Source: Acidobacteriota bacterium
Lineage (GTDB): Bacteria > Acidobacteriota > Terriglobia > UBA7540
Assembly: GCA_004298155.1 (NCBI GenBank)
Contig: SCRD01000024.1
Span: 186,001 to 250,000, forward strand
Reading direction: 5' to 3'
Length of the DNA: 64,000 nucleotides
Shown here: piece after piece, positions 19,066 to 53,145 of the stretch
Numbering within the stretch: the first letter of the stretch is position 1
How the letters are laid out: each line of letters begins with the position of its first letter
Made by a program: the position numbers and the translations under genes
The notes under the pieces: model-generated
Seen by the model: the letters and a program-made list of their open reading frames with translations, nothing else
Told to the model about the DNA's origin: nothing
Databases searched by the model: none

Positions 19066-19376
19066 GCGACTATCAGTTCACGCCTCAAGCAGTTGATGAT
19101 CTTTTTGAAATCTGGATTTACATCGCCCACGACAATCTTGAAGCGGCTAACCAAGTGGAAGACGCCGTTTACAAAGCTTGCGCCTTCCTGGCCGAAGGGC
19201 CTCTGCGCGGGCAGACCCGTGAGGATTTGACGAAGCTTCCGCTTCGGTTTTGGACGGTCCAAGCCTTTCCGAATTACATTATCGTGTACGATCCCGCGAC
19301 CCACCCTTTGCAAATCATCCGCATCCTTCACGGCAGTCGGGACATTCTGGCGATTCTCGGAGAGGGTAACCCGTAA
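19062..19376 (+). CDS. parE: ParE/RelE-superfamily toxin
   Basis: 104 residues of the RelE/ParE fold: FTPQAVDDLFEIWIYIAHDN at the N-terminus is the typical ParE helix (VDDLxxIWxYI), and FPNYIIVYDPATHPLQIIRILHGSRDI is the C-terminal strand pair with the HGSRD motif. ParE poisons gyrase; RelE relatives cut mRNA at the ribosome, and the sequence is closer to ParE by the IW/YI pattern. Located on a transferable element, the pair likely supports maintenance. Confidence 0.85.
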   Translation: MSDYQFTPQAVDDLFEIWIYIAHDNLEAANQVEDAVYKACAFLAEGPLRGQTREDLTKLPLRFWTVQAFPNYIIVYDPATHPLQIIRILHGSRDILAILGEGNP

Positions 19377-19696
19377 GCTGGGGACTGCCCTCGACCTACA
19401 AAATAACCCGCCTGTAAGCCGCGATTCCGAATGAGATGAATCGCCTCGCGGAACCGCCTCGAGAATCGGCAGTAAGTCCCTCCATCTTAGCCACTTAGCC
19501 CAGCGTTTCCCGGGTCCCCGTTCCTCGCACCGAAAATTTGACAAGAATTCTCTTCTGGAGTATCCAAGAGTCAGGTTTCTCGCATCTCGCCTCGCCGGGG
19601 TTGCAGGCGGTACGTCTGCTCTGAGTACCCCGTCCAGTTCTTCTTTCCTAATTCAGTGTTGCTGACAGTACCGGCTGCCAGAGAAAGGAGTCAGCC
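19377..19696 (+). other. Intergenic region, no gene seen
   Basis: About 320 bases. No coding potential, repeat or clear terminator is seen. It probably carries the promoter of the primase gene; a gaaaggag Shine-Dalgarno stands just before the GTG at 19697. Confidence 0.4.
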
Positions 19697-20668
19697 GTGG
19701 ATTCCCAAGTCTTGGACAAGATCGCTCGCGACTATTTTGTGCTGTTTGTAAACCGCCGCGCCTATACCGTCCAGGCGGCGCGCCCTGACCCGGAAACCGG
19801 CCGGCACTACTACTACCGGCCGACGGCAAAGGGGATCGGGCAGCCGCTGGCTCTCTCTCACGAAACGGTTCGGCGCCACCTTGAGGGCCAAGTCACCATC
19901 GCTTTGTATGCGATCAACCCCTCGACGCAATGCTGCAAGTGGATAGCAATTGACGCCGATTATAAGGACGCCCTCGAAGACCTGCTGAAGCTGAACTTTT
20001 ACCTGAGCCGGGATGGTGTTTCCGGCGCGCTCGAGAAAAGCCGGCGTGGAGGGCATTTGTGGGTCTTCTTCGATACGCCGCAGCGGGCTCGATCCTGCCG
20101 GGTCTACGTCTATGACTTGGCCCTTCGGCTGGGAGTTCCGGTCAAGGGAAACGGTCTGCCGGAGGGGATCGAGATCTTCCCGAAGCACGATGAACTGAAG
20201 CGAGGCGAGTTTGGAAACGCCATCCGTGGACCGCTCGGAATTCATCGGGCGGTGAACCGCATGTATTGGTTCTACGGGGCGGACTACGAACTCGAAAAGC
20301 AACTGGCTTACCTGACGCAGCTCCCCAAGGTGTCGAGCAGTCAGCTTGAGGCCTTAATCGCCGGGAGGGAAGGTCCGCCACAACCTTCCCCGCGCGAAAT
20401 TCGAGGGGAGGCGCTCCGTAAAAATTCCGGGAACGGTGGTCGGTGCGAGTTTCGCATTTTGGAGCACATCGGCACACAGCTGCGCAAAGTGGGACGCAAT
20501 TACGTGACGCAGTGCCCATCGTGCGCAGCCTCCGGCCACGACCGGAGTGGAGACAATCTGGCGGTCTCGATTGAGGAGCCGCAGAAATACATCTGCTGGG
20601 CGGGTTGCACGAAAGAAATGATCCGCGCAGCACTGGGATGTCCCGTGCAGGCAGCGCGGATCGCATAG
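19697..20668 (+). CDS. Archaeo-eukaryotic-type primase (TOTE-like) with zinc finger
   Basis: 323 residues, GTG start. Motif I is WIAIDADYKDA (IDAD at 85-88), motif II is SRRGGHLWVFF (H120), motif III is IEIFPKH (E159). These are the metal- and nucleotide-binding motifs of the archaeo-eukaryotic primase superfamily in the TOTE-conflict-system form. A C-terminal zinc finger (CPSCAASGH then CWAGC, about 267-300) resembles the CHC2 finger of DnaG-type primases and should bind DNA. It would make primers or fill gaps for element replication. Unlike TOTE proteins there is no fused helicase; an SNF2-type helicase lies elsewhere in the element. High confidence in the fold, moderate for the subfamily. 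Confidence 0.75.
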   Translation: MDSQVLDKIARDYFVLFVNRRAYTVQAARPDPETGRHYYYRPTAKGIGQPLALSHETVRRHLEGQVTIALYAINPSTQCCKWIAIDADYKDALEDLLKLNFYLSRDGVSGALEKSRRGGHLWVFFDTPQRARSCRVYVYDLALRLGVPVKGNGLPEGIEIFPKHDELKRGEFGNAIRGPLGIHRAVNRMYWFYGADYELEKQLAYLTQLPKVSSSQLEALIAGREGPPQPSPREIRGEALRKNSGNGGRCEFRILEHIGTQLRKVGRNYVTQCPSCAASGHDRSGDNLAVSIEEPQKYICWAGCTKEMIRAALGCPVQAARIA

Positions 20669-31275: not shown

Positions 31276-32142
31276 TTACTCAGCCAACTGGGTGCGGTCC
31301 CCATATTCCTCACGCTCCGGCCGCGAGCCCTCCGGCAGCCGCCAATACTCCTTCTGCCGCCGGAACGGCAACAGTAGGAGCGGGAAGACTCCCAACTCGT
31401 TTTCGTTCCTGTACGCGGGGACGCCTATTGTGATCTGGTCCTGCGGAACGTTTAGACGGAGCGTGCCGTGGAGTCGATCCCAAATGTTGAATAGGTTGGT
31501 GTAGTTCGAGTTGGCCTCGGCGGCAACCATGGAATGGTGAATCCCGTGCATCCGAGGCGTGATGATGAGCCAGACCAGCACCCGCTCCAGCCGGTAGGGC
31601 AACCGCCAATTGCTGTGCTGGAAGGCGACTGATCCCTCGTAGACCACCTCATAGACAAGCACGGCAACGGCGCCGGCCCCGAAAAGCAACACCCCAGCCA
31701 CGCGGAACAAACCGCTCAGGAACATCTCGCCGAAATGGAAGCGGAGCCCGGTTGACACGCCCAGGTCCAGATCCGTATGGTGCACGTTGTGGAGCCGCCA
31801 CAGCAGCGGCACCTTGTGGCTGAGCACGTGCCAGACGTACAGCAGATAGTCCATGAACAGGAACGAGAGCACGCCGTGCAACCACGGGGGCATCGGGATG
31901 ATGTTCAGCACGCCGAAGTGCGCCCAATAAGCGGCCGCCAGTTCTGCAGGGATTAGCCCCAGGCGCAAGACCAGGAACGCCGGCACGGAGACCGCCGCGT
32001 TGATGATGACTCGCCGGAAGATGCTCTGGGTCCGCCGCCGCAGTGGGCGCCGGTATTGCAACACCAGGAGCAAGGCGAACAGAGAGAAAAGTATCGGCCC
32101 GCCGTACTTGTCCAAAATCGCGTTATATATCTGGTAGGGCAT
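31276..32142 (-). CDS. Sterol desaturase/fatty acid hydroxylase family membrane protein
   Basis: 288 residues, several membrane helices (GPILFSLFALLLVL, NAAVSVPAFLVLRLG, and others). Histidine boxes HVLSH, HNVHH and HGIHH in the right order form the di-iron site of the family, which hydroxylates or desaturates lipids such as sterols, carotenoids or fatty acids. The start at 32142 is ATG. The substrate is not readable. It is the middle gene of the sulfur operon; membrane lipid change during sulfide or metal stress is only a guess. Confidence 0.8.
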   Translation of the reverse strand: MPYQIYNAILDKYGGPILFSLFALLLVLQYRRPLRRRTQSIFRRVIINAAVSVPAFLVLRLGLIPAELAAAYWAHFGVLNIIPMPPWLHGVLSFLFMDYLLYVWHVLSHKVPLLWRLHNVHHTDLDLGVSTGLRFHFGEMFLSGLFRVAGVLLFGAGAVAVLVYEVVYEGSVAFQHSNWRLPYRLERVLVWLIITPRMHGIHHSMVAAEANSNYTNLFNIWDRLHGTLRLNVPQDQITIGVPAYRNENELGVFPLLLLPFRRQKEYWRLPEGSRPEREEYGDRTQLAE

Positions 32143-32172
32143 CAGCGGTTTCCCGGAAACGAGCTTTCGAGC

Positions 32173-32523
32173 TCAAAACACCAGGACCTTGTCAGCTTCT
32201 TGAGTCCAGGCAGTCAGTTCGTCGAGCGAGCTTCGTTTTGTTCCTTGGGCGATGAAGTCAGACTTGATACCGCGAGCGTCCATGCAACTCCCGCAAATGC
32301 CGATCCTGGCGCCCTTGGTGGCCAAACCCTTCAGCATCCGCTCAATGTTGTAATAGCCGTTCGGCGTTGATTGTCCGGCCACGGCGCAAGCTGCAGCATC
32401 ACCCATCAGGAAGACCGAGACGGCCGTTCCTTCTTGCTTGGCCAGAGACCCTGCCAAACGCAGACCGTTATAACTGCGCTCAGAACCGTAAGGCGCGTCG
32501 TTGAGTACGATCAGATATTTCAT
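32173..32523 (-). CDS. DsrE/DsrF-like sulfur-carrier family protein
   Basis: 116 residues from the ATG at 32523; the long upstream frame is not coding. A Rossmann-like fold YLIVLNDAPYGSERSYNGLRLA, VSVFLMGDAAACAV and a Cys pair in GICGSCMDARG match DsrE-like proteins, where the Cys carries persulfide. With the SQR-like flavoprotein and the rhodanese regulator it is consistent with intracellular persulfide handling. Which side chains are active is inferred. Confidence 0.8.
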   Translation of the reverse strand: MKYLIVLNDAPYGSERSYNGLRLAGSLAKQEGTAVSVFLMGDAAACAVAGQSTPNGYYNIERMLKGLATKGARIGICGSCMDARGIKSDFIAQGTKRSSLDELTAWTQEADKVLVF

Positions 32524-32612
32524 TGCGATGTCCCCCATGTAATGATTCGGGTCAGCCTGCCTGGCGGACTCCGTGAAAGTCGTGGCATGTCGCATCGAGG
32601 AAGGGTACGGCC

Positions 32613-33290
32613 TTACCGGGATTCCTCCCCAATAGCAACCGGAAGTCCGAGTGCTCTCCACTCCGGTATCCCGTCTTCCAGGCGCAGGGCGCGAAAGCCT
32701 TTCGCTTTCAAAACCTCCACCGCCTTCGTGGCGAGAACACAATAAGGGCCCCGGCAGTAGGCCACGATGTCTTGATTCCTGGGGAGCTTTGACAGGTGCG
32801 ACTTCAAATGCTTGAGAGGTATGGACAGGGCGCCCGGAATGTGTCCCGCTCGGTACTCTTCTGGCGGACGTACGTCAAGGACAACTACCTCACCTTTGCG
32901 AACTCGCCTGAGGAGCGCTTTCTTCTTGACCGGCTCAAGCCGCTCAGGGCCCTCTCCGAACTGCCTGACAATGGATTCGACTTCCGCCAGACGAATTTCC
33001 GCGAGAGCTCGCAACTTCTGAAAGAACTCGCAAACCGCCACATCCGCCAAACGATAAGTTACATACAACCCTTGCTTTTCTGCTTCCACCAGCCGCGCAC
33101 TGCGGAGCACCTGAAGGTGCTGCGAAGCGTTAGCCGCCGTCAGACTGGCTTCTTTCGCAAGCGCTTCAACTGTCCGCGGACCCTGGCATAAGAGGTCCAA
33201 CAGCTCGAGCCTGGGTGGACTGGCGACCGCCTTGCCAATCCTGGCAAGCTGTTCATAGATCGCATTTTTGAAGTTGGGCGACGCACTCAT
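32613..33290 (-). CDS. ArsR-family regulator fused to a rhodanese domain
   Basis: 225 residues. An N-terminal winged helix (about 1-95: SPPRLELLDLLCQGPRTVEALA, NASQHLQVLRSARLVEAE) is followed by a rhodanese domain (about 125-220) with GHIPGALSIPLKHLKSHL and the active-site loop CRGPYC. Cys35 and Cys87 sit in helices where sulfide-sensing ArsR proteins such as BigR/SqrR hold their redox pair. Sensor plus persulfide transferase in one chain suits a sulfide-responsive repressor. It should control the divergent promoter upstream, where AT-rich inverted repeats are seen. Confidence 0.85.
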   Translation of the reverse strand: MSASPNFKNAIYEQLARIGKAVASPPRLELLDLLCQGPRTVEALAKEASLTAANASQHLQVLRSARLVEAEKQGLYVTYRLADVAVCEFFQKLRALAEIRLAEVESIVRQFGEGPERLEPVKKKALLRRVRKGEVVVLDVRPPEEYRAGHIPGALSIPLKHLKSHLSKLPRNQDIVAYCRGPYCVLATKAVEVLKAKGFRALRLEDGIPEWRALGLPVAIGEESR

Positions 33291-33319
33291 AAAGTATTCA
33301 ATAGTATACTTTAATACTA
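33291..33319. promoter_or_regulatory. Operator repeats before the ArsR-rhodanese gene
   Basis: Directly upstream of the start codon lie overlapping inverted repeats: aaagtat (33291-33297) with atacttt (33306-33312), and tagtat (33302-33307) with atacta (33314-33319). The AT-rich palindromes stand out against the GC-rich surroundings and have the shape of ArsR-family operators. They are placed to repress the sulfur operon. Confidence 0.65.
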
Positions 33320-33374
33320 AAGGAGCCGTTTGTCAATAGCTGTGGCGTGACAAGACCAGAACGGGAGGACCGAC

Positions 33375-33719
33375 ATGGCCGGGGAAATCAACGGTTTACG
33401 CCTGATACCAGAAGCGGCAGGGGAGAGCTCGGGGAACTGCGCAGCAGAAATGGCTCGCAGGGGCAGTAGCACTGAAAACGCGCGTCACGGATTCAATCGC
33501 TACCTCTACGAGAATTTGTTGTGCCATGTCGAATCCCAAATCGAAAGTTGGAACCGAAGGGCTGTACGCGAGCCGAACCCCGAGGCCGGCCACGCGCTCT
33601 GGCTCAAGGCGGAAGGCTTGGGATACGCACTCCGCCTGCTCTACGCCTTTGAACCTGAGTTTCGAGAACTCGTTGAATGCGCGAAGCGTGCCGCAACCGG
33701 CGGTGTTATCCAACGATGA
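33375..33719 (+). CDS. Hypothetical protein preceding the DUF1257 operon
   Basis: 114 residues, ATG with a gggagga site. Mixed, mostly helical, and soluble. It precedes the DUF1257 gene by 40 bases and may be its first operon member. No family recognised. It restarts the + strand element genes after the sulfur cargo. Confidence 0.5.
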   Translation: MAGEINGLRLIPEAAGESSGNCAAEMARRGSSTENARHGFNRYLYENLLCHVESQIESWNRRAVREPNPEAGHALWLKAEGLGYALRLLYAFEPEFRELVECAKRAATGGVIQR

Positions 33720-33759
33720 TTCGTGGTAGGAGCACGGACACAGCAACAGGAGGTTGGCA

Positions 33760-34176
33760 ATGTCAAAATATGGTTGCGTCGAAACCGTCGTCCGGAACGA
33801 GAAGTACCTTGTCGAGACCCTCAAGGAGATGGGCTATGAAGTCGAAGTCCACCCGGCGGGCGCGAGGCTGAACTCATATTACTCGGAACAAGAGAGGAAA
33901 GTCGTCAACATCATTGTCCGGCGCGCACAACTGCGCGGGGCGTTCGGCGACATTGGGTTTGCCCGGCAACCGGACGGCAGCCTCGCCATGATCGCGGATG
34001 AACTCGATGACCACTGCGGCTACGGGGCGAAGTGGCTTGGACGCGTTCAGCAGCTTTACAAGGAAAAGCAAACGCTCGCCATGGCCCGAGCCAAGGGCTA
34101 CATCCTGAAGAAGCGCGAAGTGATCCAGACCTCGGAAGGACAGCAGGTGCGGCTGCAATTTGCCGCGCGGAGGTAA
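33760..34176 (+). CDS. DUF1257 (Ycf35-like) protein
   Basis: 138 residues from the ATG at 33760, with caggaggt upstream; a TTG two codons earlier is less likely. KYGCVETVVRNEKYLVETL and GYEVEVHPAG at the N-terminus match the DUF1257 pattern (TxIxxxxxLxxALxxLG). DUF1257 is known from cyanobacteria and plastids (Ycf35), often beside DUF2997; molecular role unknown. It is followed 5 bases later by a DUF2997 gene. Confidence 0.65.
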   Translation: MSKYGCVETVVRNEKYLVETLKEMGYEVEVHPAGARLNSYYSEQERKVVNIIVRRAQLRGAFGDIGFARQPDGSLAMIADELDDHCGYGAKWLGRVQQLYKEKQTLAMARAKGYILKKREVIQTSEGQQVRLQFAARR

Positions 34177-34385: not shown

Positions 34386-34988
34386 ATGCTTCTTCATGCG
34401 TTGATTCCCGCCAGCCGCGCTAATGGGCCAGGCCTCCGGGCCGTGGTGTTTTTCCAGGGTTGCAATTTGGGCTGTCGGGGGTGTTGGAACAAACACTCGC
34501 ATCGCTTTTCCGGAACTGAAGAGGCGGTTGATGCCGTTGCTCATCAAATCCTCCGCGCCTTCGCAGACTATAACTTGGAAGGCGTCACCTTCTCCGGTGG
34601 CGAGCCAATGCAACAAGCAGATAGCTTGCATGGCTTGATGCAGAATCTGCACCGCCAAGCGCCAGAGCTGAGCTTTGGCATGTTCAGCGGCTACACCGAA
34701 CGCGAACTCGATGGCGGGCTCTACTGGACTTGGAAAGAGCTGTCGCCTCCTCAGAAGCGAAGATTGTGGAATGAAGTCCGCGGGCTACTCGACTTCGCGG
34801 TTCTCGGCCGCTTCAACCAGAATCAGCCAAGCACGCTGCCGTTGCGCACAAGCCGGAATCAGGTTCTTCGGCTGTTCAGCAACCGCCATACGGCTGCGGA
34901 TTTCAGCGAGCAGTTGGTTGAGGTCAGCATTCACGAAGGCGGGCGAGCGGAACTAACCGGATTTCCGGTTCTTGGGTGGAGTCAGTAG
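34386..34988 (+). CDS. Radical-SAM protein, NrdG/activase-like
   Basis: 200 residues. GCNLGCRGCWNKHS supplies the CxxxCxxC ligands of the [4Fe-4S] cluster, and GVTFSGGEPMQQ is the GGEP motif that binds the amino group of SAM. The short length and the sequence VVFFQGCNLGC fit the anaerobic ribonucleotide-reductase activase or the related single-cluster activases. No NrdD-type reductase is in the window, so the partner is unknown. Together with DUF1257, DUF2997 and an AAA+ protein this recalls a linked set of genes whose biochemistry is not settled. Start ATG 34386 follows a ggggg site. Confidence 0.75.
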   Translation: MLLHALIPASRANGPGLRAVVFFQGCNLGCRGCWNKHSHRFSGTEEAVDAVAHQILRAFADYNLEGVTFSGGEPMQQADSLHGLMQNLHRQAPELSFGMFSGYTERELDGGLYWTWKELSPPQKRRLWNEVRGLLDFAVLGRFNQNQPSTLPLRTSRNQVLRLFSNRHTAADFSEQLVEVSIHEGGRAELTGFPVLGWSQ

Positions 34989-35049: not shown

Positions 35050-36585
35050 ATGATTCGGTCTATGGAAGAGTTTGCGTCGGCGTTCCACGCCGCGCGCTGT
35101 GTCTCAACTCCGCTTGTGGCAGTACGCACGGCGGACCCGGCAAGCACAACGCATTTTGTCATCGAAGCTCTCAAGCAAGGCTGTGAGCTTCCGCCGCTCC
35201 TCAAATGGGATGTGATGCGAGGCCTCTACGCGGTCAGAAAGGACAGCACCGACGAATTGGCGCGGGTGTTGGGCGACCGTGAGGCGGCGACGGTCGGGCC
35301 CGCGGACGCGCTGCTCCTGGCGCAGCAGCTTTGCGAGGACGGGCTCCTGCTTTACACAAACGCCCACCGGTTCTGGAACGACCCCGGGGTGATGCAAGGG
35401 ATCTGGAACCTGCGTGACCCGTTTAAGGCGACGGGCCGGATGCTGGTTCTGTTGGCGGCGCCTGGTGCAACGTTGCCGGCGGAATTGGGGCAGGACGTCC
35501 TCGTACTCGATGAGCCTCTTCCCTCAACCAGACACCATGAGCAAATCGTGCGGGAGACTTTCAAGGCGGCTGAACTGGAGGAGCCTGAGCGCTGCGTGAT
35601 TGATAAGGCGGTAGACGCTCTGATCGGGCTGGCTGCCTTCCCGGCCGAACAGGCGCTGGCGATGTCGCTGGTCAAGCGCGAGCTTGATGCGGAAGACCTT
35701 TGGGAACGGAAGCGGCAGATCATCGAACAGACGCCGGGCCTGTCAGTGTGGCGAGGTGGCGAGACCTTTGAAGATATTGGCGGGGTCGAGGCCGTCAAGA
35801 ATTTCTTACGAGCAGTGCTCGCGGGCGTCGATTCTCCGCGCGTTATCGTCTTCATCGATGAGATCGAGAAGGCGTTCGCGGGAACGGGAACGGACCTCTC
35901 GGGCGTCAAGACGGAGATGACGGGTACGATCCTGACGTTTATGCAAGACCGGGAAGCGGACGGAGTCGTTTTTATTGGGCCGGCTGGCAGCGCCAAAAGT
36001 GCGACCGCGAAGGCCACGGGCGGCACGGCAGGCATTCCCACGATTGCTTTTGACCTGGCGGCCATGGAGAGTTCTCTTGTTGGCGCTTCAACCGAACGGC
36101 TGCGCACGGCGCTTAAGATCATCGACGCGGTATCGCAAGGGCGGATGCTGTTCATTGCGACGTGCAATTCGATCGCAAGCTTACCGCCCGAGCTGCGCCG
36201 GCGCTTTACACTCGGCACGTTCTTCTTCGACCTCCCAACGGCCGAAGAGCGCGAGACGATCTGGCGAATCTATCTCAAGAAGTACGACGTGTCGGGCGAC
36301 CTGCCAAACGATGAAGGCTGGACAGGCGCGGAAATCAAAGAGTGCGCGCGGAAGGCGCACCGGCTGGGGATGACTCTTGCCGAGGCGTCGCGCTACATCG
36401 TGCCGGTTTCCCGTTCCGCGGCTGAGCAGGTCAAGGCGCTTCGGCAGATGGCCTCTGGGAAATTTATCAGCGCCTCGACGCCCGGCCTTTACAGATACCA
36501 AGAGGAAATCGCTGCCCAGGGGCGTCGCGTGATCCGCCGAAACGAACCTCTCACCCTCCTGCCACCATCGAAATCACAGGCCTGA
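35050..36585 (+). CDS. AAA+ ATPase with permuted motif order (Walker B before Walker A)
   Basis: 511 residues from ATG 35050 with aaaggag upstream. Residues 1-230 form an N-terminal domain unlike the AAA+ core, with alternating strands and LLVLDEPLP-type segments. The core begins with EDIGGVEAVKNFL (241-253), then Walker B VIVFIDEIEK (265-274), then Walker A GPAGSAKS (310-317), then sensor 1 FIATCNS (368-374) and the Arg-finger ELRRRF (381-386). In ordinary AAA+ proteins (including Ycf46, which it resembles in wording such as FIDEIEKAFAGTG and GTILTFMQD) Walker A comes before Walker B. The two blocks are swapped here, and all key residues are kept (Lys316, Asp270, Glu271, Arg383-385). It should still bind ATP if the fold is permuted. 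Confidence 0.85.
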   Translation: MIRSMEEFASAFHAARCVSTPLVAVRTADPASTTHFVIEALKQGCELPPLLKWDVMRGLYAVRKDSTDELARVLGDREAATVGPADALLLAQQLCEDGLLLYTNAHRFWNDPGVMQGIWNLRDPFKATGRMLVLLAAPGATLPAELGQDVLVLDEPLPSTRHHEQIVRETFKAAELEEPERCVIDKAVDALIGLAAFPAEQALAMSLVKRELDAEDLWERKRQIIEQTPGLSVWRGGETFEDIGGVEAVKNFLRAVLAGVDSPRVIVFIDEIEKAFAGTGTDLSGVKTEMTGTILTFMQDREADGVVFIGPAGSAKSATAKATGGTAGIPTIAFDLAAMESSLVGASTERLRTALKIIDAVSQGRMLFIATCNSIASLPPELRRRFTLGTFFFDLPTAEERETIWRIYLKKYDVSGDLPNDEGWTGAEIKECARKAHRLGMTLAEASRYIVPVSRSAAEQVKALRQMASGKFISASTPGLYRYQEEIAAQGRRVIRRNEPLTLLPPSKSQA

Positions 36586-36745: not shown

Positions 36746-37117
36746 TCATCGCAAAGAGTGACGGCTCTCAGCGTTTTGAGCGAAGAGGACACTCAGCCTC
36801 CCAGCCCGGCGTCGCGGGGCGGGCTTTACGACAATTTCCACGTCCCTCCCTAAGCTTGTCAGGCAGCGCAGTAGCCGTCGCTCTGAAACCCCTCGAAATT
36901 GTCCTTTGAGCAGTTTCGAAATCTTCGGCTGAGTCAGGCCCAGCAGTTCTGCCGCTTTGTCTTGGGTGAGGCCGCGCTGCCGGATAATGTCTCCAATTTT
37001 CGTGACGAGCTGAGCCTTCACCATCATGTCGTCAGGGTCTGGGTAGCCAAGGTCAGCATAGACATTCCGACGGCCTTCCTGAATGGAAACGCCGTGGATG
37101 ATCCGTTCTTTTCTCAT
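36746..37117 (-). CDS. XRE-type antitoxin (HigA-like)
   Basis: 123 residues. A helix-turn-helix is visible in IIRQRGLTQDKAAELLGLTQ PKISKLLKGQ-type sequence (about residues 47-75), typical of XRE antitoxins. The start overlaps the toxin stop by 4 bases. Toxin gene first then antitoxin is the HigBA order. It should repress its own promoter together with the toxin. The C-terminus is rich in Arg. Between 36586 and 36745 no gene is seen. Confidence 0.75.
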   Translation of the reverse strand: MRKERIIHGVSIQEGRRNVYADLGYPDPDDMMVKAQLVTKIGDIIRQRGLTQDKAAELLGLTQPKISKLLKGQFRGVSERRLLRCLTSLGRDVEIVVKPAPRRRAGRLSVLFAQNAESRHSLR

Positions 37118-37482
37118 GATTCCAACTCCTTGGCGGCCTCCTCAGCCGCCTTCATCCGTTGCCGGATTAAATCAAGGTCAGCTTTGGGCGTAGCGATGCC
37201 TCGCTTGGCTTTTTTCTGAAATACGTGGAGGACAAAGACGGCGCGCTCAAAGCGCACCGTATAGACTGCCCGATAGCTGTTTCGCTCCCAATCCTCAACA
37301 ATTTCCAACACACCTGCCGACCCGAACCCCTTCAACGGCTTGGCTTGTTCGTGCTTCCTGCTGATCTGCGCGAGGTAGAGCGCATACCCGAAAACGTCAA
37401 CAACGCCTTCAGGAAGCGCCAGCAAATCCCTCTTGCTGCTCCCCACCCAGTACAACGGCTTCAGCTTCGGGGGTTCCTCCAT
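37114..37482 (-). CDS. HigB-like phage-derived toxin (RelE superfamily)
   Basis: 122 residues from the ATG at 37482 (MEEPPKLKPLYW); an upstream extension adds unlikely residues. LKPLYWVGSSKRDLLALPE, VVDVFGYALYLAQIS and VLEIVEDWERNSYRAVYTVRF match Gp49/HigB-type toxins. Members cleave mRNA at the ribosome. It pairs with the XRE antitoxin encoded just downstream with a 4-base overlap. Confidence 0.8.
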   Translation of the reverse strand: MEEPPKLKPLYWVGSSKRDLLALPEGVVDVFGYALYLAQISRKHEQAKPLKGFGSAGVLEIVEDWERNSYRAVYTVRFERAVFVLHVFQKKAKRGIATPKADLDLIRQRMKAAEEAAKELES

Positions 37483-37622
37483 CACCACTGCCAGAATATA
37501 CCCAAATGGGCATACTGACAAGGGAAATCCACTGCTTGTCGGCTCGTGACAGCTCAGCCTTCTTCTATATGACGGTTTGTCCTCACAGGACCGTAAGACA
37601 CTTCCTTCTTGGAGTCTGATTT

Positions 37623-43008: not shown

Positions 43009-43508
43009 CTGTCCACCTCAAGATGACGCGCCGCCTGATGGAGACAATCAGGCGTGACCTGGCCCGGCCCCATCCCTTTGCGCATGAACGCGTCGGGTTT
43101 ATTTCCGCAGGCCTGTCATCGGCCGATGATGACCTATGGATTCTTGCGCGCAGCTATCGTGCGGTACCTGACGGCGATTACCTCCGTGATCCATCCGTTG
43201 GCGCAATGATGGGGCCGGATGCGATCCGCAAGGCTCTTCAGTGGGCCATGTCGGACGGCGTGGCGATTTTTCACGTGCATACGCACGGCGGCTGCGGACG
43301 ACCTCGCTTCAGTGGCATCGACCTGCGAGAGCAGGCAAAATTTGTACCGAACTTTTTTCAGATTGCTCCTCAATGTCCGCACGGTGCGCTGGTAATGAGC
43401 GATAACTCCGCCTACGGCCACATCTGGCTGGATGGCGATAAGCCCTGCGAGGTTATTACCGGCTTCGTGGAAGTTGGTTCCCCCCTCAGTACCTGGAGCG
43501 CCGTATGA
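43005..43508 (+). CDS. JAMM/JAB metallopeptidase
   Basis: 167 residues. HVHTH (90-94), S103 and D106 in FSGIDLREQ form the zinc-binding motif and Glu28 (HERVGF) is the catalytic Glu. In ubiquitin-like operons this enzyme trims the Ubl tail or removes it from targets. The ATG at 43005 overlaps the E2-like stop and was preferred over a longer, out-of-place upstream frame. Its own stop overlaps the E1-like start, so the whole set is translationally coupled. Confidence 0.85.
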   Translation: MTVHLKMTRRLMETIRRDLARPHPFAHERVGFISAGLSSADDDLWILARSYRAVPDGDYLRDPSVGAMMGPDAIRKALQWAMSDGVAIFHVHTHGGCGRPRFSGIDLREQAKFVPNFFQIAPQCPHGALVMSDNSAYGHIWLDGDKPCEVITGFVEVGSPLSTWSAV

Positions 43509-44425
43509 CCCGTTTCGATCGTCAAAGCTTCCTTGGCGCGGATAGTGAAAGCAGACTTTATGCGGCAACGCTCGGCCTCGTTGGCCTGGGCGGTGGCGGC
43601 TCACATATAGTTCAGCAAACAGGCCATCTCGGAATTGGCGGATATGTCGTAGTCGATCCCGATCACATCACCGAAACCAACACGAACCGCCTCATTGGAG
43701 GCGCACTGGCTGACCTAAAAGCAGTGACAACTAAAGTCGCCATTGCCGAACGCCTCATTCGGGGGCTCCAGGAGCACCCGCGAATCATCCCCGTGCATGA
43801 TACCTGGCACAATGCGACGGGAGAATTGAAGCGTTGCGACATCATTGTCGGTGCCGTCGATTCATTCAAAGAACGCGAACAGCTTGAACGCTTCGCACGC
43901 AGGCACTTGATCCCCTATATCGACATAGGGATGGACGTACACGATTTGGGCGACAAAACCTATCTTATCGGGGGCCAGGTTATTCTTTCCATGCCCGGCA
44001 AGGCTTGCATACGTTGCTGCGGGCTGATTACCGAGGAACGATTGACACTGGAAGCCAACAAATACGGAGCGGCAGGAAGTCGCCCACAAGTTGTGTGGTC
44101 AAACGGTGCGCTGGCTTCAGCCGCTGTCGGACTCATCGCTCAACTCCTGACGCCCTGGTTCAAGGAGCCGCCCGAGTTTGTATACCTGGACTATGATGGC
44201 AATCGCGGAACGCTCGTACCTAATGACCGGATGGAACTGCTCCGCAATAAAATTTGCCCGCACCATCCACCCGAAGAGACAGGTGATCCGCTTTTCGATG
44301 TGCGCGAGTTCAATAGGCTCACAGCAGACTTGGCGCTGAGGAAAGGCAAGCTCGCGTCCACGCCAGCTCCGACCAGTTTTTGGAAAAAGCCATTGGCCGT
44401 AATTGCTAAGTTTCTCGGCCTCTAG
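43505..44425 (+). CDS. E1-like (ThiF/MoeB-family) activating enzyme
   Basis: 306 residues. GLVGLGGGGSHIVQQTG is the nucleotide-binding loop, VDPDHITETNTNRL includes the Asp and Arg that bind ATP, and KACIRCCGLI supplies Cys candidates for thioester formation. It would adenylate the Ubl C-terminus. The C-terminal residues 230-306 differ from ThiF and carry KICPHHP, a possible extra metal pair. Good support from position with Ubl, E2-like and JAMM genes. Confidence 0.85.
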   Translation: MTRFDRQSFLGADSESRLYAATLGLVGLGGGGSHIVQQTGHLGIGGYVVVDPDHITETNTNRLIGGALADLKAVTTKVAIAERLIRGLQEHPRIIPVHDTWHNATGELKRCDIIVGAVDSFKEREQLERFARRHLIPYIDIGMDVHDLGDKTYLIGGQVILSMPGKACIRCCGLITEERLTLEANKYGAAGSRPQVVWSNGALASAAVGLIAQLLTPWFKEPPEFVYLDYDGNRGTLVPNDRMELLRNKICPHHPPEETGDPLFDVREFNRLTADLALRKGKLASTPAPTSFWKKPLAVIAKFLGL

Positions 44426-50615: not shown

Positions 50616-51577
50616 TGGGCCAGGCGAGCGGGGTCATTCTGCCGAAACTCGACGGAGCGCCAGTCGAATACCGCATCTCATCAGAAGACCCGCGTGCCAT
50701 CAAGCTGGCTCAAACCCTGACCATCATCGGAATCGCAGACCCGTGCGATTGGGAAGAAGCCAAACGAAGTCCCGCAGGTTATGTGCAAGCAGCCTTGATG
50801 CGTTGGCTCGCCTTACACGGAGGCGGCCAAATTCAGCAGAGCTTTGCGCTCAACGCTACGATCAGCGGCAGTCCGGACCTGTACTGCGGCGAAGAAGGCC
50901 GGCAGGAGTTGCTGTATCTCATGGTTGATCCTGACTCGGCTGGGTACATGATTCTCGGGCCGACACTTGATAGGCTGGAGCATATTCACCCGCGTCTCCC
51001 GGCAACCTTTTATCACCAATTTGTCGGCGCCATACAGCGATGGGAGCGTCTGTACGATTATCGCGATGCCCAGGACCGAGTGGAAATATTGCGAGAATGG
51101 GCCGAAGGAGAAGCAGACCAGGAGCAGTATGAGTTTCCTGACGTTGAAAGCTGCATTCCAGCGTCAATGAAGCTGAGGCCCCTTTCGGAGAAACAGGTGC
51201 AGCGGATTGCTGACAGCACAGATGACCAATTGTGCCGTCAACTTCTGCAGGCGGCGCTCGATTTGAACAGGGTTTCGCGAAGGGTCCGTCGTCCCGAGAT
51301 CAGCGAAGATACGCGAGAGGCGCTCATGGATTCAAATCCACCGCTGCCCGCTCTGCTCGTCAGCTTCAAGCGCCATGACTCGGTGTGCGCCTGCTACGAC
51401 GACGAGTCGCAAGCTTTTTTGGAGGCCACCCCCGAACCCAATCTCATCGTGGAAATCAATCCTGCCGGTTGCGCGAGCGTCCGGCGGGCATTTGACACGC
51501 TCGCAGTCCTGTGCGAGACGATGGCCGCTGCAAGCCGAGTGGCGGCGTTATTGCCCGGCAACGAGCAGGAAGGGTAG
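50615..51577 (+). CDS. PRTRC system protein F
   Basis: 320 residues from ATG 50615. KLAQTLTIIGIADPCDWEEA, ATFYHQFVGAIQRWERLYDY and CYDDESQAFLEATPEP match PRTRC protein F. Several His/Cys are scattered but no metal motif is clear. Role unknown. It overlaps the preceding stop, and the B gene follows 11 bases later. Confidence 0.75.
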   Translation: MGQASGVILPKLDGAPVEYRISSEDPRAIKLAQTLTIIGIADPCDWEEAKRSPAGYVQAALMRWLALHGGGQIQQSFALNATISGSPDLYCGEEGRQELLYLMVDPDSAGYMILGPTLDRLEHIHPRLPATFYHQFVGAIQRWERLYDYRDAQDRVEILREWAEGEADQEQYEFPDVESCIPASMKLRPLSEKQVQRIADSTDDQLCRQLLQAALDLNRVSRRVRRPEISEDTREALMDSNPPLPALLVSFKRHDSVCACYDDESQAFLEATPEPNLIVEINPAGCASVRRAFDTLAVLCETMAAASRVAALLPGNEQEG

Positions 51578-51588
51578 GAGGTATGGGG

Positions 51589-52296
51589 ATGGAGGCTCAT
51601 GTCCAGATCGGTGCAAGCGCGAATCTGCAGCTACGTCACGCCTTGCTTGTGTACACGGACCAGCAGAGGGCATTTGCGACTTTGCACGACATTATCAGCC
51701 AGGAAGAAGGCGCTCCACTTCTCGCCCCTGCCCAGCCGCTTAGTTTGGGCTTCCTTCGACGGCTGGCGGAGGGGCTTGGTAACCACGTTGTCCCGGAAGT
51801 CCTACCTGAAAATGTTTTGGCACGGACGGCAGAGATGATCGTCTGGTGGAGCCCGGCGGCGCTCCGAATCATGTTCTTTGGGGACGCTGACGAGCAGGCG
51901 AGGAAATTGAACGGCCTGAACTTCCCACATCCTCCGCTCGTGTTCAAAGTCCGCGGGCAGGAGCTTTTCGTGCGAGCTCTTGAGAAGAACGTCCGCCCCT
52001 GCCCCGATACACCGCTCAAAACGGCTCCTTACTGGAATACGGCCGGCGACGACGGAAGAGTCTGTTTAGGGACGACGCGGGCGCCGGAAAGCCAGTCGGT
52101 TGATTCCATCAAACCCTGGCAAGCCGCATTCTTCCAGAGCTCTTTTACGCATCCTCTGGGCGCCGTCCGGCTGACCCATCACAAAGAAGGTTTCATCGGA
52201 CTCTGGTGCGCTCTGGCGGGCAAGCAGGTATTCCCGGCGCATTTCCTAACTGACGCGAGGGAGACTCTGCGGGAATTCGTCGCCCGAGAGCGGTGA
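51589..52296 (+). CDS. PRTRC system protein B (E2-like)
   Basis: 235 residues from the ATG at 51589. The aggagg at 51576-51581 is one base from another ATG at 51583 and seven from 51589, so the second fits better. FLRRLAEGLGNHVVPE, TAEMIVWWSPAA and DDGRVCLGTTRAPESQS match PRTRC protein B, whose Cys (in RVCLG) is the candidate catalytic residue of its E2-like fold. Confidence 0.8.
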   Translation: MEAHVQIGASANLQLRHALLVYTDQQRAFATLHDIISQEEGAPLLAPAQPLSLGFLRRLAEGLGNHVVPEVLPENVLARTAEMIVWWSPAALRIMFFGDADEQARKLNGLNFPHPPLVFKVRGQELFVRALEKNVRPCPDTPLKTAPYWNTAGDDGRVCLGTTRAPESQSVDSIKPWQAAFFQSSFTHPLGAVRLTHHKEGFIGLWCALAGKQVFPAHFLTDARETLREFVARER

Positions 52297-52299
52297 GCC

Positions 52300-53145
52300 A
52301 TGGATACACACAGGCTGCATGAAGAATTGCTGCAACGCGAAGTGCGCGTACTTGTCGTTGGGTGCGGCGGCAACGGGAGCGCCATCCTCACCGGATTGCC
52401 ATACCTTCACAGCGCCATGCTGGCGCAAGGCCATCCTTATGGACTGCATGTGACTGTGATGGACGGGGATACTGTTTCGCCGTTCAATTCTGTCCGCCAG
52501 CCTTTCGGGAGGAGCGAGGTGGGATTAAACAAAGCCATCGTGCTGGTGAACCGGATCAACCTCTTTTGGGGGCTGAACTGGCAAGCCATTCCGCAGGCGC
52601 TGACTCCTCAGACGCTCGCGCCATCTTACGTTGGTTATGGTGAACCGCATTTGCGGCCGGACATCGTCATCGGCTGTGTGGACACGCGCGCAGCACGGGC
52701 GATGATTGCCCAGAGCACGGCGGGCTTCAGCGGCGTGGGCTACTACATGGATTTAGGCAACTCAGCATCAACCGGGCAGTTTGTCCTAGGCGAACCCCTG
52801 AACGAGAGGAACAAACGATCCAGGACCCGCCTGAGAACTCTCATGGAGTTATTCCCTGAAGTGGCCGACCCTGCTCTTGACGATGACAACGAGCCAAGCT
52901 GTAGCGCGATCGATTCCCTTGAACGGCAACATAGCTTCGTGAATGGCGTCCTCGCCCAGCACGCCTTGGCGTTGCTCGCCGGGTTGTTCCGGTATGGGCA
53001 GCTCGCTTTTCATGGGGCTTTCATTGACGTAGCCGAAACGCGTTCAGTGCCGTTGCCAGTGGACCCGAAGGTTTGGAGGCGTATCAGATCGGGGCGAGGA
53101 AAGACGAGATGTTTGAATTCAAAGCAAGCGCAAAGCGACCCGTAA
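52300..53145 (+). CDS. PRTRC system ThiF-family protein
   Basis: 281 residues. VLVVGCGGNGSAILTGLPYL is the nucleotide-binding loop; MDGDTVSPFNSVRQPFGRSE includes the acidic and Arg residues that bind ATP; VIGCVDTRAARAMI follows. A C-terminal acidic stretch and SCSAIDSLERQH carry Cys candidates. It is the E1-like member of the cassette. Start ATG lies 3 bases after the B-gene stop. Confidence 0.9.
   Translation: MDTHRLHEELLQREVRVLVVGCGGNGSAILTGLPYLHSAMLAQGHPYGLHVTVMDGDTVSPFNSVRQPFGRSEVGLNKAIVLVNRINLFWGLNWQAIPQALTPQTLAPSYVGYGEPHLRPDIVIGCVDTRAARAMIAQSTAGFSGVGYYMDLGNSASTGQFVLGEPLNERNKRSRTRLRTLMELFPEVADPALDDDNEPSCSAIDSLERQHSFVNGVLAQHALALLAGLFRYGQLAFHGAFIDVAETRSVPLPVDPKVWRRIRSGRGKTRCLNSKQAQSDP

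Follow-up and report, generated by a model that had tools for sequence, protein, structure and literature searches.

A Ycf46-like AAA ATPase family with the Walker B block ahead of the Walker A block

We analysed a 64,000-nucleotide stretch of an Acidobacteriota genome (the window) and found an ATPase, P0001, laid out as N-terminal domain, Walker B block, Walker A block and then sensor 1 with the C-terminal lid. At least 118 distinct proteins have this order and keep their catalytic residues; the swapped Ycf46-like family therefore looks like a real, so far undescribed rewiring of the AAA+ core, which is among the most conserved of molecular motors. We put at roughly 0.8 the probability that P0001 is a functional Ycf46-like AAA ATPase in which two adjacent core segments, β1/Walker A-α1-β2-α2 and β3/Walker B-α3, were exchanged once in an ancestor, with the ends unmoved.

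The ATPase gene starts with the ATG at 35050, which has an AGGAG-like site on its 5' side, and its stop codon is at 36583-36585. A sequence-only reading of this DNA had described a 511-residue protein with Walker B encoded before Walker A in a continuous open frame, and had argued against a sequencing error. The start site and the relatives confirm this description, and its residue numbering agrees with ours (Table 1). In P0001, FIDEIEK lies 40 residues ahead of GPAGSAKS, which is followed by β2, the pore-loop-like motif SLVG, sensor 1 and ELRRRF. The Walker A, Walker B, sensor 1 and Arg-finger motifs of the AAA+ superfamily and its classic AAA clade are all present, and all are conserved in an alignment of 118 sequences, whereas the motifs do not follow the usual sequence Walker A - Walker B - sensor 1. 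The Pfam AAA match to P0001 (2e-12) is split into three broken stretches.

Table 1. Features of the ATPase gene and its module partners in the window
Feature	Position	Strand	Basis or remark
DUF1257 (Ycf35-type) protein	33754..34176	+	Pfam PF06868, 1.8e-8
DUF2997-like protein, 63 aa	34182..34373	+	Pfam PF11211, sub-threshold (0.093); PHROG 23133
NrdG-like radical-SAM / 4Fe-4S protein	34386..34988	+	Fer4_12, 1.6e-27; NrdG, 3.8e-24, below cut-off
ATPase P0001 with permuted core	35050..36585	+	511 aa; ORF and translation
N-terminal domain, residues 1-239	35050..35766	+	Profile matches to canonical Ycf46-like proteins
Walker B block, residues 265-303, ahead of Walker A	35842..35958	+	D270/E271 near-invariant
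Walker B motif FIDEIEK, residues 268-274	35851..35871	+	
Walker A block, residues 304-365	35959..36144	+	P-loop 310-317, pore-loop SLVG 342-345, α2
P-loop (Walker A) GPAGSAKS, residues 310-317	35977..36000	+	
Sensor 1, Arg-finger region, lid motif GWTGAE and C-terminus, arranged as usual	36145..36585	+	
Sensor 1 motif FIATCNS, residues 368-374	36151..36171	+	
Arg-finger region ELRRRF, residues 381-386	36190..36207	+	
DUF3150-family helical protein, 304 aa	37623..38537	+	Conserved synteny in swapped loci

The same order was found in other genomes by profile search, a check that the sequence-only reading had suggested. Among 60 related genomes searched, the collinear relatives at 87, 73, 62 and 76% identity all carry Walker B first, and more distant relatives carry Walker A first. 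We scanned 84,980 species genomes, with 37 loci as the result, and IMG/VR, with 30; the viral collection then added 80 and 80 further, overlapping ones. The swapped-family profile has 242 matches; each of the 230 full-length ones (230/230) is a single collinear domain, and these collapse to 118 distinct proteins, P0001 among them, with no exception to the order. The carriers include phages, mobile elements of Acidobacteriota and independently assembled MAGs. Among them are the closed chromosome of Nitrospira moscoviensis (NZ_CP011801), a Chthonomonas MAG, a 'Deltaproteobacteria' MAG and the isolated phage Tunturi_3 (PP885686), whose relative at 45% identity came from a search of phage records. 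The phylum-level spread seen here is a lower bound.

Across the 118 swapped proteins, K316, G345, N373 and R385 are invariant (118/118 each), D270 is kept in 116 (Glu in the other two) and E271 in 117 (Asp in one). Between P0001 and its close relatives, dN/dS is 0.09-0.12 over the whole protein and 0.03-0.08 in the swapped blocks, where purifying selection is strongest.

We also notice some unusual loci. The N. moscoviensis chromosome holds the module of permuted ATPase and DUF3150 protein in two copies (L053 and L054). Contig C191 of genome G084 carries a canonical (L375) and a swapped (L094) Ycf46-like gene about 12 kb apart, at 19147-20610 and 32015-33520. In several MAGs, the swapped-type genes L005, L018, L047 and L048 lack about 110 N-terminal residues (ORF of 376 aa), with a TGA reported within the match for two of the four; these may be decayed copies, or shortened forms in which the N-domain is incomplete.

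The closest canonical-order homologues of P0001 are Ycf46-like ATPases (PHROG 8638), found in cyanobacteria, plastids, phages and plasmids. They resemble P0001 in length and in the AAA motifs GG..K, P-loop, DE, sensor 1, R-finger and G(W/F)(S/T)GAE, and they share its N-domain and C-terminal lid, with profile matches in 16 of 16 relatives. The N-domain of 230 residues, regarded earlier as distinct to P0001, is therefore a common possession. They differ in that Walker A precedes Walker B in all 117 sampled, an order not followed by P0001, and in the linker from the GG motif to the P-loop, which is mostly 35 residues long.

When searched with the swapped profile, 16 canonical proteins match in four pieces: the N-domain, 298-356 (block A), 258-297 (block B) and 360-470. 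Exchanging the blocks in silico turns the four pieces into one match in 16 of 16, with a gain of 43-53 bits. The public PHROG 8638 model has the canonical order: it aligns with canonical proteins without a break (493 bits for L021, and 303 bits), whereas swapped proteins match in four pieces at 138-151 bits. Because the pieces rejoin on un-swapping and PHROG 8638 agrees, the rearrangement, as judged from these profiles, is a transposition in which two neighbouring inner blocks change places and the junctions lie shortly before core strands. Of the two layouts proposed earlier, a block swap or a circular permutation, the former stands on the profile un-swap and the unmoved termini, and the latter is ruled out, for the N-domain and the lid stay in place and only two inner blocks are exchanged. 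A circularly permuted P-loop NTPase has its old termini joined and new ones inside the domain, which is not the arrangement of P0001. The GTPases YqeH, RsgA and RbgA show that a P-loop NTPase core can be naturally permuted and still function (PMC2741578); they are GTPases with a circular permutation, whereas P0001 is an AAA+ ATPase with exchanged inner blocks and fixed ends.

A tree built from 87 swapped and 117 canonical proteins puts all the swapped ones in one clade, with none misplaced. Trees of the separate regions also give one swapped clade (support: N-domain 0.82, A block 0.97, B block 0.99, C-terminus 1.00), and all are consistent with a single origin of the swap. The C-terminal tree places the canonical ATPase L022, from a Ca. 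Manganitrophus plasmid, as sister of the swapped clade (support 0.98), a placement absent from the other partial trees. L022 resembles the swapped proteins in its DUF1257-DUF2997-DUF3150 module and in its short linker from the GG motif to the core, 25 residues against 26 in 116 of 118 swapped proteins and 35 or more in nearly all other canonical ones; it differs in its canonical order. L376, the ATPase of the Thermovibrio plasmid pTHEAM01, has canonical order, a short linker as read by eye, and DUF2997 nearby. The simplest path to the swap may be a tandem duplication of A-B, after which the first A and the second B were lost. No duplicated-block intermediate (A-B-A or B-A-B) occurs among the 117 canonical and 118 swapped proteins. 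We suppose that the exchange was a single event, in an ancestor whose carrier was probably a plasmid or phage.

Structure prediction of P0001 (AlphaFold2, built on 47 relatives) gave a mean pLDDT of 85.5, above 90 in both motif regions, and a pTM of 0.72, with all five core strands assigned. The predicted AAA+ fold is confident and p97-like, and its AAA part superposes on p97 D2 (Z 16.7, 2.6 Å, 198 residues), in an alignment that is apparently sequential and blind to the position of the Walker B strand. Residues 4-472 of the model align with the p97 D1-D2 tandem (Z 18.6, 4.9 Å, 399 residues). Because the whole chain aligns in this way, the N-domain is probably a degenerate, D1-like AAA+ module without a P-loop. 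P0001 thus shares with p97/Cdc48, a tandem AAA+ unfoldase, the predicted two-module layout, the AAA fold and the pore loop; it differs in a first module without a P-loop, a permuted second module and the absence of an N-terminal cofactor domain. In mean-field DCA of the swapped set, the normal sheet order shares first place among 60, whereas in the canonical control it comes 32nd, and there is hardly any correlation between the two families' maps. Since the method fails on the canonical control, we give covariation little weight.

The most likely fold is an ordinary AAA+ sheet with re-routed connections, in which α3 would lead from β3 to β1 and α2 from β2 to β4. The conservation of the motifs and the confident folding suggest that the Walker motifs meet at one ATP site, where K316, D270/E271, N373 and R385 would still act together with the neighbouring subunit. 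The chain would then be p97-like, with a dead AAA-like first module and one live permuted module bearing the pore-loop motif SLVG.

Several other explanations of the swapped order were weighed. The window genome is in 29 contigs and probably metagenome-assembled, and the order could in principle reflect an error of assembly or sequencing, or a frame that is chimeric in a single MAG. This idea has practically no chance of being right: the order recurs across all the distinct proteins, in independent assemblies, in a closed isolate chromosome and in an isolated phage, and the low dN/dS of the ATPase speaks against it too. The assembly rearrangement that the sequence-only reading named as a refutation is itself refuted by the relatives. 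It is extremely unlikely that the motifs were misread, with FIDEIEK belonging to an N-terminal AAA domain and the second domain having merely lost its Walker B. The resemblance of the N-domain to a degenerate AAA+ module would fit such a misreading, but the N-domain has, by eye, its own degenerate β3 (LLLYTNAH) and its own sensor-1-like strand. Moreover, profile positions 258-297 are a contiguous match to the second-domain Walker B block of canonical Ycf46-like proteins, and the N-domain of these relatives is without that block.

Other alternatives accept the swap and question its consequences. Domain exchange classically arises through swapped connections, and the rearrangement might favour an exchange of β3-α3 between neighbouring subunits, so that the Walker B block acts in trans. 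We regard this as very unlikely, given that the monomer prediction confidently places all elements and that the linkers are short, with 26 residues between the GG motif and the Walker B Asp. The rearranged connections could also misplace catalytic groups and leave a pseudo-ATPase that binds ATP without hydrolysis, as a nucleotide-gated scaffold. Such a protein is improbable: the Walker B Glu, the sensor 1 Asn and R385 are kept almost without exception in sequences that have diverged widely, which is difficult to account for unless ATP is hydrolysed. A functional ATPase with exchanged inner blocks remains our preferred explanation.

The neighbours recognized by the sequence-only reading, DUF1257, DUF2997 and a radical-SAM protein, are borne out by profile matches and synteny. 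The DUF3150 protein, which it did not list, is a very constant partner of the ATPase. We compared 113 non-redundant swapped loci, of which 82 exceed 11 kb, with 83 canonical loci. In the 82 longer swapped loci, the partners are DUF1257-like (79), DUF2997-like (78), DUF3150 (76) and NrdG-like radical SAM (22); the 83 canonical loci have DUF1257 in 34 and DUF2997 in 35 (about 40%), radical SAM in 17 and DUF3150, rare there, in 8. The commonest order in swapped loci is ATPase>DUF1257>DUF2997>(rSAM)>DUF3150 on a single strand. The ATPase, DUF1257, DUF2997 and DUF3150 genes are a conserved four-gene module, with the radical SAM optional.

Members of the DUF3150 partner family match Pfam DUF3150 in 14 of 24 cases. 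The AlphaFold2 model of the DUF3150 protein (pLDDT 85) is mostly helical with a β hairpin, and a structural search with its C-terminal helical bundle returned unspecific matches only (best Z 9.7). In phage Tunturi_3, the DUF3150-type partner ORF96 (L024 15693-16652) is named 'HNH endonuclease' in its GenBank entry, but a Pfam search finds no such domain in it. In the window, two overlapping genes on the opposite strand lie between the ATPase and DUF3150 and break the usual operon: an HTH_37 protein (36746-37117, -) and, by eye, a small HigB/RelE-type toxin-like protein (37114-37521, -), together a possible toxin-antitoxin pair. In cyanobacteria, DUF2997 and DUF1257 (ycf35) cluster with the ferredoxin gene fed7 (PMC4284462). 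Because of this clustering and the radical SAM in the module, there are hints of an iron-sulphur connection.

The window looks like an integrative/conjugative element, with genes for a XerC-type recombinase, a T4SS coupling protein, PRTRC ThiF, PRTRC B and an SSB-like protein. The regions 51511-53145 and 43505-44425 of this element encode PRTRC system protein B and ThiF and a second ThiF/E1-like protein. Most Bryobacterales genomes that carry the swapped ATPase also have PRTRC ThiF, as do many genomes of Acidobacteriota with the ATPase gene. We considered the ubiquitin-like PRTRC system as a necessary partner of the ATPase and rejected this, because PRTRC ThiF is absent from 12 of 12 phage contigs carrying the swapped ATPase; PRTRC thus seems to go with the host element rather than with the ATPase.

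A defence role was likewise considered and rejected, PADLOC matches being weak and partial only; the match to the Iet anti-phage ATPase (IteA/IetA) covers residues 355-440 only, at 25 bits against a cut-off of 510. We propose that the ATPase is a ring-forming protein remodeller with a single live ring of permuted AAA modules, on the assumption of a hexamer and a protein client, which works with DUF1257 and DUF2997 as adaptors or clients and with DUF3150 as a structural partner. That its client is encoded by the element or by a phage is a tentative proposal, and we consider it rather doubtful. Also short of an even bet is the idea that the swap rewires the motor of a fully active enzyme, so that hydrolysis would be coupled to substrate movement by a route that no described AAA+ protein uses. 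The pore-loop helix α2 would then lead directly to the sensor 1 strand, as would the Walker B helix α3 to the P-loop strand. If so, this would be a naturally evolved re-threaded AAA+ fold that arose before the family spread through phages and several phyla.

AAA+ proteins are taken to have a fixed motif order, Walker A - Walker B - sensor 1, and detection profiles are built on it; proteins with the swapped order therefore match current models in pieces only. We found no account of a permuted AAA+ ATPase in the literature searched (open-licence PMC papers). The phage and plasmid module of ATPase, DUF1257, DUF2997 and DUF3150 is related to the Ycf35/Ycf46 genes that algal plastids retain to this day. 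That a large, old family departs from the order and keeps its catalytic residues indicates that the AAA+ fold tolerates re-threading at the centre of the core, very probably with its function preserved as far as the conserved residues tell. With the swapped family, nature provides a way to test what strand connectivity means for motor coupling and folding.
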